Assembly: GCF_009184905.1 (NCBI RefSeq) | Contig: NZ_WESC01000007.1 | Span: 1 to 64,000, forward strand | Length of the DNA stretch: 64,000 nt | From: Parvibaculum sedimenti | GTDB taxonomy: Bacteria > Pseudomonadota > Alphaproteobacteria > Parvibaculales > Parvibaculaceae | Direction: 5' to 3' | Shown: positions 25,693-30,091 of the stretch, one piece after another | Layout of the letters: every line of letters starts with the position of its first letter | Numbering within the stretch: the stretch's first letter is position 1 | Program-made: the position numbers and the translations under genes | Notes under the pieces: model-generated | Told to the model about the DNA's origin: nothing | The model's input: the letters and a program-made list of their open reading frames with translations, nothing else | The model's database searches: none

Positions 25693-26019
25693 ATGAGCAA
25701 GTTCACGCGACATCTTATCGCCGGTCTTGCCGGTTCGCTGCTGGCGCTTTGCGGCAGCGCGGCCATGGCCGGCGGCGGCCTCACGGTCGGCGACGCGCTT
25801 TCGACCGGCCCGTTCATTGAAATGCACGAACCCATGTTCGTCGGCGAAGGCCCCTTCGATGGCGATCCGCCGCCACCCGGACATCCCTGCAGCAAGGTCG
25901 TGCGCGACGGACCGACCGCGGACGGCCGCATGGCACATTGGAGCGCCCTGCGTTGCTACGACGCCGCCGGGCGGCCCTATATCGTGCGCGGCAGCGAGCG
26001 CATCGAAAATTTTCACTGA
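25693..26019 (+). CDS. Small exported protein of unknown function
   Basis: A 108-residue protein I do not recognise. Residues 1-26 are a clear Sec signal peptide (HLIAGLAGSLLALCGSAAMA with an AMA-GG cleavage site). The mature part is about 80 residues with a proline-rich PFDGDPPPPGHPC stretch and two cysteines (near residues 66 and 86) that could form one disulphide. It ends in a strand-rich YIVRGSERIENFH. It is probably periplasmic and may be monocistronic. It is convergent with the kinase gene with only six bases between stops. Confidence 0.7.
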   Translation: MSKFTRHLIAGLAGSLLALCGSAAMAGGGLTVGDALSTGPFIEMHEPMFVGEGPFDGDPPPPGHPCSKVVRDGPTADGRMAHWSALRCYDAAGRPYIVRGSERIENFH

Positions 26020-26025
26020 GCCCGC

Positions 26026-27084
26026 CTAGCTCGAAAGCGGCAATCTCAGTTCCACCCGATATCCGGGCGCGAGTTCCGTTCGCTCGATTTCGCCCCTGAT
26101 CTGTTGCGCCAGCGCATTGACGAGGCGCGAGCCCAGTCCCGTGCGGCTCCGATCGAAAACGACTTCACCCTCATCCTCGATCGAGAGTTTCAGTTCGCCC
26201 TCCGCCGCGCGTAGCGCGATGCGGATAGGGCCCGCGCCGCCGGGATAGGCATGCTTCAAGACATTGATGATGAGTTCGTTGACGATCAGCGCCAGCGGCA
26301 CCGCGATGTCGACCGGAAGCTCAAGCGCCTCCGCCTCGACATCGAAGTTCCAGCGCGCGCTCCCGTTATTCGCCGACGAAGCAATATCCGCGCATAGCTC
26401 GCGCAGATAAGAACTCATCTCGACAGCGGTATGGCTCTCAGTGCGGAAAAAACGCTCATGCACCGAGGTGATGGCGGCGACGCGCGACGCAGCGGATTCG
26501 AGATGGGATCTTATGCGCTCGTCGTTCGCGGCCGTCGCCTGAAGGTTCAGTATACTGACGACAAGTTGCAGGCTGTTCTTGATCCGGTGGCTGACTTCCC
26601 TGAAGAGAATATCCTTCTGGACCAGCATTTTTTCGCGCTCGGCGAGGGCGCGCTCCAGTGCCAGCTCGCGCTCGCGGCGGATGGGTTCCGTAACATCCCT
26701 GAGCTTGAGAACGATGCAGGCCATGCGCCCGTCGCCCCCGAAAACCGGCTGGATGCGCGGATTCCAGTAACGCTCATCAATTCCGCCACCCTCTTCCTCA
26801 GGCAGCACGATCTCATATTTTCCGGCAGTCAGGGTTTCCGCCTCGCCCGTCGCCAGCGCTCGCTCGAGCGACCTGCGCACCTTGCGAAATGCGGCTGCGA
26901 GTTCGACATTTGCATCGGCAGGCAGCAATTCGATGAATGGTTTTCCGATCACGTCCGCGCGCGCCGCGCGCATCAGCGCAAGTTGCCGGTCGCTCGCCGC
27001 CATAACCGTGAAGCGCCCATCGGCGCTCAGCAGCAGGCAGGCATCGGGCAATGCGTCGAAGACGTCGCCAAAATCTACGGCCAT
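26026..27084 (-). CDS. PAS/HisKA_2-type sensor histidine kinase
   Basis: A 352-residue soluble sensor kinase. Residues 1-150 are a PAS domain (FGDVFDALPDACLLLSADGR at about residues 4-23, PAC-like sequence KLRDVTEPIRRERE near 145). A coiled stretch leads to the phospho-acceptor box REVSHRIKNSLQLVVSI, which is the HisKA_2/HWE-like type rather than classical HisKA. The HATPase_c domain has LIVNELIINVLKHAYPGG for the N box. No transmembrane segment is visible. ATG 27084 is supported by a GGAAG upstream; the longer frame to 27318 is not. No response regulator is adjacent, so its partner is unknown; general-stress pathways often use this kinase type. Confidence 0.88.
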   Translation of the reverse strand: MAVDFGDVFDALPDACLLLSADGRFTVMAASDRQLALMRAARADVIGKPFIELLPADANVELAAAFRKVRRSLERALATGEAETLTAGKYEIVLPEEEGGGIDERYWNPRIQPVFGGDGRMACIVLKLRDVTEPIRRERELALERALAEREKMLVQKDILFREVSHRIKNSLQLVVSILNLQATAANDERIRSHLESAASRVAAITSVHERFFRTESHTAVEMSSYLRELCADIASSANNGSARWNFDVEAEALELPVDIAVPLALIVNELIINVLKHAYPGGAGPIRIALRAAEGELKLSIEDEGEVVFDRSRTGLGSRLVNALAQQIRGEIERTELAPGYRVELRLPLSS

Positions 27085-27184
27085 AGGTGGCTTCCGTTGG
27101 CGGAGTTTCTTTTGAGTATTGCCTTGGGTCGTCGCTCCCTCTCGATCAGCATGCCACCATTGCGGCGGGAGCAGCAAGCGCGGG

Positions 27185-27754
27185 CTATATCTCGAAATGG
27201 TGCGGCAGGTCGGCGAGCAGCGGATGCTTGCGGTCCTTGTCGGAGAGAACGGGTTCCGTCGTCGCGAGTTGCCAGTCGATGCCGAGCGCGGGATCGTTCC
27301 ACAAAAGGCCGCCATCATTCGCCGCCGAGTAGAAATTCGAGACCTTGTAGAAAACTTCCGTTTCAGGCTCCAGCGTCACCAGCCCATGCGCGAAGCCGAT
27401 CGGCACCAGAAGCTGCAGGCCGTTTGCAGCGCTGAGCACAACCTTCTCATGCTGGCCGAAGGTCGGCGAGCCGTGACGGATATCGACCACCACATCGAGA
27501 ATGCTGCCCCGAAGAACCCGGACGAGTTTGTCCTGCGCGAAAGGGTACGTCTGGAAGTGAAGCCCGCGGACCGTGCCCTTGTCTGCCGAGCACGACTGGT
27601 TGTCCTGCACGAAGGCAATATCGATACCCGCCTCGGCAAAGGCACGCTGACTGTAGGTTTCAGAGAAGAAGCCCCGCGCGTCTTCGAAGCGCCGCGCCTC
27701 GATGAGCTTCACATCCGGGAAGCGGCCGAGTTGCGTCACCTTGATGCCGGACAT
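27185..27754 (-). CDS. rfbC: dTDP-4-dehydrorhamnose 3,5-epimerase
   Basis: A 189-residue RmlC-type cupin that epimerises dTDP-4-keto-6-deoxyglucose on the way to dTDP-rhamnose. Conserved elements are DARGFFSETYSQRAF (about residues 25-39), VQDNQSCSADKGTVRGLHFQ (about 49-68, with the catalytic His at its end), and PIGFAHGLVTLEPETEVFYK (about 118-137). The other rml genes are not beside it, which is unusual. The 44-bp partial tRNA-Glu repeat that marks an integrated element lies about 80 bases upstream of its start, so its upstream region may have been altered by that insertion. Confidence 0.93.
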   Translation of the reverse strand: MSGIKVTQLGRFPDVKLIEARRFEDARGFFSETYSQRAFAEAGIDIAFVQDNQSCSADKGTVRGLHFQTYPFAQDKLVRVLRGSILDVVVDIRHGSPTFGQHEKVVLSAANGLQLLVPIGFAHGLVTLEPETEVFYKVSNFYSAANDGGLLWNDPALGIDWQLATTEPVLSDKDRKHPLLADLPHHFEI

Positions 27755-27830: not shown

Positions 27831-27874
27831 TGGTACGTCCTAGGGGAGTCGAACCCCTCTTTCCAGAATGAAAA
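27831..27874 (-). repeat. Partial tRNA-Glu copy (distal attachment-site repeat)
   Basis: These 44 bases repeat the 3' half of the tRNA-Glu gene at 30017-30060: CCA end, acceptor 3' strand, T arm, variable loop and part of the anticodon arm. They match with one mismatch (T at 27838 against C at 30024), so 36 bases are identical without a break. Immediately beyond 27874 the similarity ends. This is the layout of an attachment-site duplication left when an element integrates into a tRNA gene. Confidence 0.9.
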
Positions 27875-27927
27875 CCTACAAGCATTTGTAGGCGCATACA
27901 GGCCCAATGTAGATGCATTTCAAGAAA

Positions 27928-28308
27928 TCAATCTGTTGGCGCCTGCCGCAACCACCTTGAGACTCTCGCAAGCTCACGTGCGACTGTAGCGTTCTTTTTT
28001 CCTCTCACCTCTGTATGTGCAAAATTTTGGTCCAGAGGCTCGTGAACGACATCTTGTTTGAGCGCCCGCGCCGCTCCGGCGGGAAAGGTGACAACGCCAG
28101 CGGATGGATCTGCGCTCAATGTTTGATCCCAGTCTTGACCATCACGCTGAAGCAGTTCCAATGCATCGACCGACATATTCGGGTCCCGGAATGCGGCAGA
28201 TGATGGGCGCTTTCCTCCATTACCGTCGGGAACATGCTGATCAGAACGGACTCTCCTCAATAAGCTCCATTCGTCGGCAATCTCCACCTTTTGCTGCAGC
28301 TCTGCCAT
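27928..28308 (-). CDS. Uncharacterised protein, third gene of island operon
   Basis: A 126-residue soluble protein. After a short N-terminal stretch it shows a compact motif block: RPSSAAFRDPNMSVDALELL (about residues 34-53), then GVVTFPAGAARAL, VVHEPLDQNFAHTEVRGKKN (about 87-106) and a final helix VARELARVSRWL. I recall uncharacterised bacterial proteins with the same order (S-S-x-F-x-D-P, V-V-H-x-P-L-x-x-N-x-A-H, G-K-K), so I take it as real, but no function is known to me. It starts 13 bases after the preceding gene and completes a three-gene operon. No catalytic pattern is obvious; conserved His and Asp residues are worth testing. Confidence 0.68.
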   Translation of the reverse strand: MAELQQKVEIADEWSLLRRVRSDQHVPDGNGGKRPSSAAFRDPNMSVDALELLQRDGQDWDQTLSADPSAGVVTFPAGAARALKQDVVHEPLDQNFAHTEVRGKKNATVARELARVSRWLRQAPTD

Positions 28309-28321
28309 ACGGAGCGCACCA

Positions 28322-28825
28322 CTACGCGCGAACAGTGAGAGCGATCACAGCCTCATCCAAACGACGAAAATCGTTCGAGATTGTATCCTCAATGCTCTCT
28401 CCGCGATCTCGATCCTCAAACCAAAAGTCTGCGTCGTATGGCCCTGCGACGTGAACCTCCAAGTCTAGCGCGTTAGTGTGCCACTCAAACTGGATTCCAC
28501 CGATGGACGACGGCACAACAGACGGCGTAGGGGTCCGTTCCCTCATGACAGACTGGAGCATTTGAATCGCGAACATTGCGGTTTCGCGTTTTATTGGAGC
28601 CGCGCCATAAGTGTCCCAGTTGCTTTTAAGATCAAGCAATCCACAGACCTCACGCAGCACTGTGGTCGACCACTGCTCCGTCGGCGCATGCTCGCGCAAT
28701 CGCTTCCTGGGACCGAGCGGAACAAAATTCCTGGGACGAGCTGTTGGCGCCTTCTCAACCATGCCCGACGGAATTGTGTATTCGTCGTCGCTCAGCGCAC
28801 GAGAAGATTTATTAGTCGCTGACAT
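28322..28825 (-). CDS. Uncharacterised protein, second gene of island operon
   Basis: A 167-residue soluble protein I cannot assign. After about 50 disordered, basic residues it has a core LLDLKSNWDTYGAAPI (about residues 63-78), a helix ETAMFAIQMLQSVM, then PSSIGGIQFEWHTNALDLEV (about 105-124) and the strand DADFWFEDRD. The W-D-x-Y-G-A and G-G-I-Q-x-E-W-H motifs recur in small phage- and island-borne hypothetical proteins as I remember them. Its ATG lies 14 bases inside the 3' end of the TIGR04255-like gene, so translation of the two is coupled. The strand order suggests a small alpha/beta fold. Confidence 0.68.
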   Translation of the reverse strand: MSATNKSSRALSDDEYTIPSGMVEKAPTARPRNFVPLGPRKRLREHAPTEQWSTTVLREVCGLLDLKSNWDTYGAAPIKRETAMFAIQMLQSVMRERTPTPSVVPSSIGGIQFEWHTNALDLEVHVAGPYDADFWFEDRDRGESIEDTISNDFRRLDEAVIALTVRA

Positions 28826-29627
28826 TCTTCAGACCCCAAAGCTCATGCATTTTAGCCGTTGTCAGACCCGCAAAGCTCTTCACAATAGCCTCATGGCATT
28901 TTTCAATAGTTGCCCTTGCCGCATCAACCGTATCCTGCTTAGGCTTTGCTCTTGCCGTCAGTTGGAATTGTATGGCTGCTCTCTGAGTTTCATTATGAAA
29001 AGCCGGCAAAAACTCGGCATGAAGGCGTCCGTAGGGCGCGCCCTCCTCATCCTGCAGCAAAAATCTCACGGAGCCGGTCGCGTTATCAAACGGAAAGCCC
29101 TCTTGAGGCGGCATATCCTTCGCCCAGAACCGAAATACGTCGCCTAAGTACGCGTAGGGGTTTCCCTCTCCTTCAGTATAAATATGATTTATATATGTCA
29201 CTTCAACTTGGTTGATACTCAGATCGCCAATATTTTGGTCCTGAAGAAACTTTTGCCAAGCATCAAGCTCAAGGACGAACTCGGAAAACAACTTTTTGAA
29301 ACGTGGATACTTGTCAGATGCCTGCGTTTGTCTCCAATTATGAAGAAAGCGGTCATTCTGTATTTGGATCAGTTCGCAATCGTCTTCAGTAACAAACCAG
29401 TACCGCGTTGGCGTCCGACCGAACTGCAGATGAAACCCCGACTGCACGGGATTTGGGCCAAATGTTTCAAATATCGCCGCCAACGGATCCTGCTCGGACA
29501 CCTTTGGAAAACGCTTCTTCATACGCTCATAGAACATCCCAGCGTGAACATTCGAGAACTGTGTTGTCGCATTCTGAATGCCTATGATCACCTCGGTGAC
29601 CGGGGGCTGATCGAAGTCAGGCAGCAT
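28812..29627 (-). CDS. TIGR04255-like protein, first gene of island operon
   Basis: A 271-residue protein that resembles the sporadically distributed TIGR04255 family. Visible hallmarks are the N-terminal FDQPPVTEVIIGIQ (about residues 4-17), the middle block YWFVTEDDCELIQIQNDRFL followed by NWRQ and YPRFKKLFSEF, and SINQVEVTYINHIY (about 152-165). The C-terminal half is less conserved and ends in a helix with MHELWG. No function is established for the family as far as I know. It leads a three-gene operon with coupled downstream genes, and its own start has only a weak GGA upstream. Codon use is less GC-rich than in flanking core genes. Confidence 0.72.
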   Translation of the reverse strand: MLPDFDQPPVTEVIIGIQNATTQFSNVHAGMFYERMKKRFPKVSEQDPLAAIFETFGPNPVQSGFHLQFGRTPTRYWFVTEDDCELIQIQNDRFLHNWRQTQASDKYPRFKKLFSEFVLELDAWQKFLQDQNIGDLSINQVEVTYINHIYTEGEGNPYAYLGDVFRFWAKDMPPQEGFPFDNATGSVRFLLQDEEGAPYGRLHAEFLPAFHNETQRAAIQFQLTARAKPKQDTVDAARATIEKCHEAIVKSFAGLTTAKMHELWGLKNVSD

Positions 29628-29722: not shown

Positions 29723-29947
29723 GTGAGAGTGGCTTCCCTATCCCTCTCCTATTCCCTCGGGCGGCCAGTGGCGGGCAGCGATCTTGCCGACGCGAGCGAG
29801 AGCGAGAAGGAAATTGCCGCCGTGCTCGGCCACCGCACGCTACGCATGGTCCAGAACTACACGAAGTCCGCGGCGCAGAAGCGCCTCGCCAGCTCGGCGA
29901 TCAAGCGGCTCGAACGCGCCGACAAAATGCGGAAATCAGAGGGCTGA
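29723..29947 (+). pseudogene. Tyrosine-integrase C-terminal remnant
   Basis: The frame encodes the last 60-70 residues of a tyrosine recombinase: EKEIAAVLGHRTLRMVQNYT contains the LGH box (the second catalytic His or Trp position, then Arg) and the nucleophilic Tyr, followed by a basic helical tail KRLASSAIKRLERADK. The catalytic domain's first Arg, the HxLR box and the whole DNA-binding part are missing, so it cannot be active. It lies 69 bases from the tRNA-Glu 3' end, the usual place for an island integrase. The start codon given is only the edge of the open frame. Confidence 0.8.
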
Positions 29948-30016: not shown

Positions 30017-30060
30017 TGGTACGCCCTAGGGGAGTCGAACCCCTCTTTCCAGAATGAAAA
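30017..30060 (-). repeat. tRNA-side attachment-site repeat
   Basis: Right copy of the 44-bp direct repeat, lying within the 3' half of tRNA-Glu, including the encoded CCA. The left copy is at 27831-27874. The intact tRNA shows that integration restored the gene's 3' end. Confidence 0.9.
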
Positions 30061-30091
30061 TCTGGCGTCCTAACCGATAGACGAAGGGCGC
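30017..30091 (-). tRNA. tRNA-Glu (anticodon TTC)
   Basis: The minus strand folds into a full cloverleaf of 75 bases including an encoded CCA. The acceptor stem GCGCCCT pairs with AGGGCGT (first pair G-T), the D arm is GTCTATCGGTTAGGAC, the anticodon stem CCAGA/TCTGG encloses the loop with TTC (30056-30058), and the T arm is GGGGTTCGACTCCCC. The tRNA is the integration target of the neighbouring element; its 3' end faces that element. Confidence 0.95.

Follow-up and report, generated by a model that had tools for sequence, protein, structure and literature searches.

A TIGR04255-led three-gene cassette on a tRNA-Glu island of Parvibaculum sedimenti as a candidate modular toxin-antitoxin-like system

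Our findings identify a cassette of three small coupled genes in the alphaproteobacterium Parvibaculum sedimenti, here termed A, B and C, whose order is conserved across phyla and whose first gene, a member of the TIGR04255 family, leads related operons in which the second and third genes differ. Because the order is conserved, gene 1 is constant and gene 3 can be replaced by known toxin-type enzymes, we regard it as an evenly balanced proposition that the cassette belongs, as a subtype, to a modular toxin-antitoxin-like system built from three genes. Such a TIGR04255-based three-gene system is apparently undescribed so far. The DNA analyzed, referred to as the window, comprises 64,000 nucleotides (positions 1 to 64,000 of contig NZ_WESC01000007.1, RefSeq assembly GCF_009184905.1).

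The island and its three genes

An initial annotation, made from the letters of the window, had described three coupled, leftward genes as the only intact cargo of a small tRNA-Glu island with attachment repeats, and this description holds. All three ORFs are intact and on the minus strand; A shares 14 bp with B, and 13 bp separate B from C, as originally reported.

27831..27877, minus strand: attachment-type repeat, a partial copy of the 3' part of tRNA-Glu (compared with 30017-30063)
27928..28308, minus strand: gene C, 126 aa, proposed toxin, of a family related to PDC-M32B (family alignment, AF2, Foldseek)
28322..28825, minus strand: gene B, 167 aa, proposed antitoxin with a conserved C-terminal domain (PDC-M32A match, family alignment)
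28812..29627, minus strand: gene A, TIGR04255 family, 271 aa, the constant first gene and proposed common third component, as scaffold or sensor (NCBIfam and AF2 model)
29723..29947, plus strand: remnant of a tyrosine integrase, C-terminal end (PF00589 positions 135-171)
30017..30091, minus strand: tRNA-Glu (ttc), the integration site (ARAGORN)

The three genes are located between the tRNA-Glu gene and the 47-bp repeat, which is identical to the tRNA at 45 of 47 positions (96%, E 1.8e-14), with the integrase remnant alongside (PF00589, 18.4 bits, E 0.0019, below the cut-off of 27.1). GC content is 0.526 in the island against 0.621 in the window, near the lowest in the window at that length. 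Across the genus the tRNA-Glu gene and recJ are syntenic, and in at least five relatives the tRNA adjoins sir2 and glyoxalase genes, which in the window lie about 4-5 kb from it, with the cassette absent; gene B did not turn up in any of 26 further genomes of the genus that were searched. Taken together, the repeats, the integrase remnant, the low GC content and the relatives without the cassette establish A, B and C as the sole intact genes of a small island that is missing from the sampled relatives.

Between the glyoxalase gene and the repeat (window 25693-27754) there is also a histidine-kinase-like ORF (26026-27318) followed by an rfbC-like epimerase (27185-27754). Since neither is present at the tRNA-Glu flank in the relatives checked, the repeats may understate the size of the insertion. 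The genes neighboring the tRNA-Glu/recJ site vary between genus members (L132-L145, region after tRNA-Glu), as expected of an integration hotspot.

Conserved gene order and exchangeable downstream genes

An A alignment, applied to a set with a single genome for each species, recovered 80 TIGR04255 loci in other species, in which B and C were sought by profile searches of the locus ORFs. The genes occur as A-B-C, in the same order and overlapping or nearly touching, in 51 of the 80 loci and at least seven phyla, a proportion that is not a frequency because the loci were selected by similarity to the A of the window. The larger groups are Pseudomonadota (32 loci), Acidobacteriota (11) and Planctomycetota (3), with single loci in Nitrospirota, Actinomycetota, Gemmatimonadota, Melainabacteria and an unassigned MAG. 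The overlaps between A and B are mostly 4-20 bp long (19 bp in 21 loci), and all four alphaproteobacterial B loci that were read have a TIGR04255 gene before B and a C homologue after it. The trio is also present on viral contigs (L119, L120, L122 and L126) and on a Mycobacterium paragordonae plasmid, where it adjoins mobF. A second, very divergent A-B-C cassette exists in the genome of the window itself (contig C23, L036/L175; L175:5415-7300), with match values of E 3e-6 for B and 0.002 for C, and it stands by itself among unrelated genes, with a transporter on one side and a cytochrome b561-like gene on the other, and no tRNA accompanies it. Because the same order recurs so widely among homologous loci, the trio is more than chance or a local accident. 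The families are thus found together elsewhere, none of A, B or C belongs to a housekeeping family of Pfam or NCBIfam, and the genes are uninterrupted; these results leave the initial view of the genes as one unit in place.

Most of the remaining loci still have A as gene 1, followed by a small gene 2 and a different gene 3. The latter encodes a PIN domain in L065, L080, L103, L104 and L109 (PF01850 above cut-off), in L115 (PF01850 below cut-off) and, by similarity to the other PIN loci, in L071. In 11 loci, including L084:11216-11824 and L107:6399-6986, gene 3 belongs to a family that is marked by a TQxCDL motif, ends in PPYREHLSQAFARFFMRVGLP and matches no Pfam or NCBIfam family, and a relative was recognized by eye in L020, L021 and L034. 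Gene 3 of L018 and L019 is NlpC/P60-like by a weak match that is not significant. The proteins of these two loci (L018:270-935 and L019:243-944) have a conserved DGLTCATFI stretch, and the family is perhaps NlpC/papain-like. Gene 2 also differs between the operons, with an HTH_3 domain above cut-off in L020 and weaker HTH and Xre-antitoxin matches in L021 and L034; in the PIN-type operons its end, judged by eye, resembles that of PIN-partner antitoxins.

The TIGR04255 family model identified 21 places in 16 of 289 alphaproteobacterial genomes; by eye, nearly all have the three-gene layout and most have a C-like gene 3 that keeps R...SV[DN]...H. In a quick tree built from 94 A proteins, which contains long branches, the type of gene 3 changes at least nine times where the minimum for four types is three, the calls for divergent C-like, TQxCDL and NlpC-like genes being partly by-eye readings. 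Gene 3 has thus probably been swapped several times while A stayed the same.

Predicted properties of the three proteins

The proposal that gene 1 is TIGR04255-like is borne out by a score of 84.3 bits against the NCBIfam cut-off of 30, with residues 5-265 aligned to model positions 2-252. TIGR04255 is a curated family for which no function is stated, and no mention of it was found in the literature searched. The AF2 model of A (pLDDT 91.7) is a duplicated beta-helix-beta-sheet-helix protein, predicted to have a duplicated TBP/helix-grip-like scaffold as its fold. Foldseek matched the model to AdoMetDC prozyme and TBP with a probability of 0.99 but a TM of only 0.24-0.28, and then to START/Bet v 1-like proteins. 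As modeled, A looks like a binding scaffold. A sequence profile search of A against the PDB returned no significant match, and A was absent from the phage records searched. Assignment of A as a SecB-like chaperone was considered and is not supported, as the family is TIGR04255 and SecB is absent from the 50 best PDB matches of the model. In the family alignments mean column identity is 33% for A, 21% for B and 22% for C.

Aligned with its family, B varies at the N-terminus and is conserved in its C-terminal domain. Rather than matching the PADLOC model PDC-M32A over its full length, B matches it only at positions 260-348 of 375 (E 8e-9), and 58 of 60 members of the B family match the end region of this model. 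Neither B nor C has a Pfam family above cut-off or an NCBIfam match, and a sequence profile search of B against the PDB found nothing significant. No close relatives of B emerged from a single-sequence search of genome contigs; the first relatives came from other families of the Alphaproteobacteria and share 30-36% identity, and B occurs in 5 of 387 genomes of the class. The plasmids searched contain a single weak match to B, an Acetobacter protein in which the B domain occurs twice in tandem (Acetobacter persici plasmid, L007:4965-6270); this protein overlaps a gene annotated as SspB, the ClpXP specificity factor.

No catalytic motif had appeared clear in the initial annotation, a point that the family alignment of C corrects: S46 and H98 are invariant, and D6, R18, R81 and P91 are nearly so. 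The conserved S46, H98, R18, R81 and P91 would fit a putative active site. PDC-M32B is matched by 7 of 56 members of the C family (best 3e-9) and not by the C of the window. The AF2 model of C (pLDDT 94.8) has no significant Foldseek match in the PDB; although the best E is about 0.7 and the TM about 0.4, the KptA/Tpt1 tRNA 2'-phosphotransferases form a coherent set near the top (probability up to 0.44), joined by HopF (AvrPphF ORF2), an effector with the ADP-ribosyltransferase fold (probability 0.30), and a viral RNA 2'-phosphotransferase is among the matches in BFVD. The predicted fold of C may thus faintly resemble that of KptA and the ADP-ribosyltransferases. As sequence relatives of C, KptA and the RES toxin families were rejected by a null profile comparison (hhalign probability 0.1). 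Sequence profiles against the PDB, family searches, Foldseek and this comparison together gave no significant match of C to known toxins. Our plasmid search found no C, nor did a pattern search of viral contigs.

Proposed mechanism and competing explanations

The PIN proteins as gene 3, the HTH/antitoxin-like proteins as gene 2, a separable B-C pair, the sporadic spread of the cassette on islands and plasmids and the better conservation of A, relative to the more rapidly evolving B and C, point to a division of roles. C, as gene 3, would be the toxic effector, B, as gene 2, the cognate antitoxin neutralizing it, and A, as gene 1, a common component serving different pairs of gene 2 and gene 3. 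The initial annotation had guessed at a defense, toxin-antitoxin or competition module. The toxin-antitoxin or competition part is strengthened because gene 3 of sister operons is a PIN nuclease and gene 2 elsewhere is HTH/Xre-like; the defense part stays weakly supported, by the distant kinship of B and C to PDC-M32, whereas the adjacent genes are mostly unrelated or of housekeeping type. The sister operons resemble VapBC-type PIN pairs in having a PIN protein after a small gene 2, whereas in the window the operon begins with a TIGR04255 gene and has C, rather than a PIN domain, as gene 3.

For the part played by A, the closest comparison is with the TAC systems. The antitoxin of CmdTAC is held by a SecB-like chaperone; when phage capsid protein titrates this chaperone, an ADP-ribosyltransferase is released (PMC11618068). 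By analogy, A probably binds the antitoxin or the complex, and a trigger would set the toxin free through A, as with the chaperone of TAC/CmdTAC; A may act in a comparable way through an unrelated fold. Both systems comprise three genes, which in the cassette would encode a small toxin, an antitoxin and a third protein, and CmdT is an ADP-ribosyltransferase, a fold that the model of C faintly resembles. In contrast to TAC/CmdTAC (PMC11618068), the proposed third component of the cassette is encoded first and is a TIGR04255 protein with a TBP/helix-grip-like model rather than SecB.

Extending this toxin-antitoxin-like reading, TIGR04255 could define a class of three-part conflict systems that spans phyla, with one helix-grip/TBP-like hub that senses infection or stress and controls interchangeable toxin-antitoxin pairs, namely PIN nucleases, the TQxCDL family, NlpC-like proteins and C as a minimal ADP-ribosyltransferase-like toxin. 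We advance this generalization tentatively, as a possibility on the doubtful side.

The sequence models indicate that the cassette partly overlaps the PADLOC candidate system PDC-M32. In the loci found with the PDC-M32A model the B domain ends a longer protein and a C homologue is next to it, in the order of the cassette; PDC-M32A, however, has a different N-terminal part of about 260 residues, and its surroundings showed no adjacent TIGR04255 gene. In L008 and L009 a type I methyltransferase-like gene lies upstream of this pair. Such loci indicate that B-C is a separable pair, to which A would be an added component. Coupled, sporadic and found without A, B-C has the layout of a type II toxin-antitoxin system, a small coupled pair.

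This kinship raises the prospect of anti-phage abortive infection, in which A would sense a phage product and B-C would act as the effector complex, extending PDC-M32; such a reading is compatible with the toxin-antitoxin-like one and adds a trigger to it. Besides the distant relation of B and C to PDC-M32A and PDC-M32B and the adjoining methyltransferase genes, the report of PDC-M32 from a Sinorhizobium prophage, in the one paper mentioning it within the literature searched, and the precedent of CmdTAC as a three-part defense toxin (PMC11618068) argue in its favor. However, PDC-M32 is itself a candidate system, and a defense-gene setting of the cassettes was not evident: in a tally without a background control set, the 145 neighboring ORFs gave isolated type I S subunit, MADS, Dpd and Brx-like matches and were otherwise mostly metabolic. 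A defense role is possible and not favored by the neighborhood, and we rate abortive infection as rather unlikely.

Alternatively, B-C may be a core toxin-antitoxin pair for which A is a repressor, stabilizer or passenger and no sensor. The occurrence of B-C without A, in PDC-M32-type loci and in L124, L127 and L128, would agree with this, as would the presence of TBP, a DNA-binding protein, among the top fold matches of A; but A stands first with several types of gene 3, a constancy that speaks for A being active alongside each of them, and we consider this explanation unlikely. An ordinary metabolic, RNA-processing or stress complex that reached the island by chance would suit the weak fold likeness of C to tRNA 2'-phosphotransferases and the many A-B-C loci amid housekeeping genes (e.g., L175), but is very improbable given the sporadic occurrence of TIGR04255 and B, the lack of B in the other genus members searched, and the replacement of gene 3 by PIN nucleases.

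By placing TIGR04255 at the constant position of operons whose toxin-type genes can be swapped, our findings give the family a testable role and tie it to the PDC-M32 candidate. C, the TQxCDL family and the NlpC-like proteins emerge as several uncharacterized putative effector families, each encoded together with its cognate partners. Should A sense a trigger or hold the antitoxin, these operons would represent a second way of controlling a toxin through three parts, one that does not depend on SecB.
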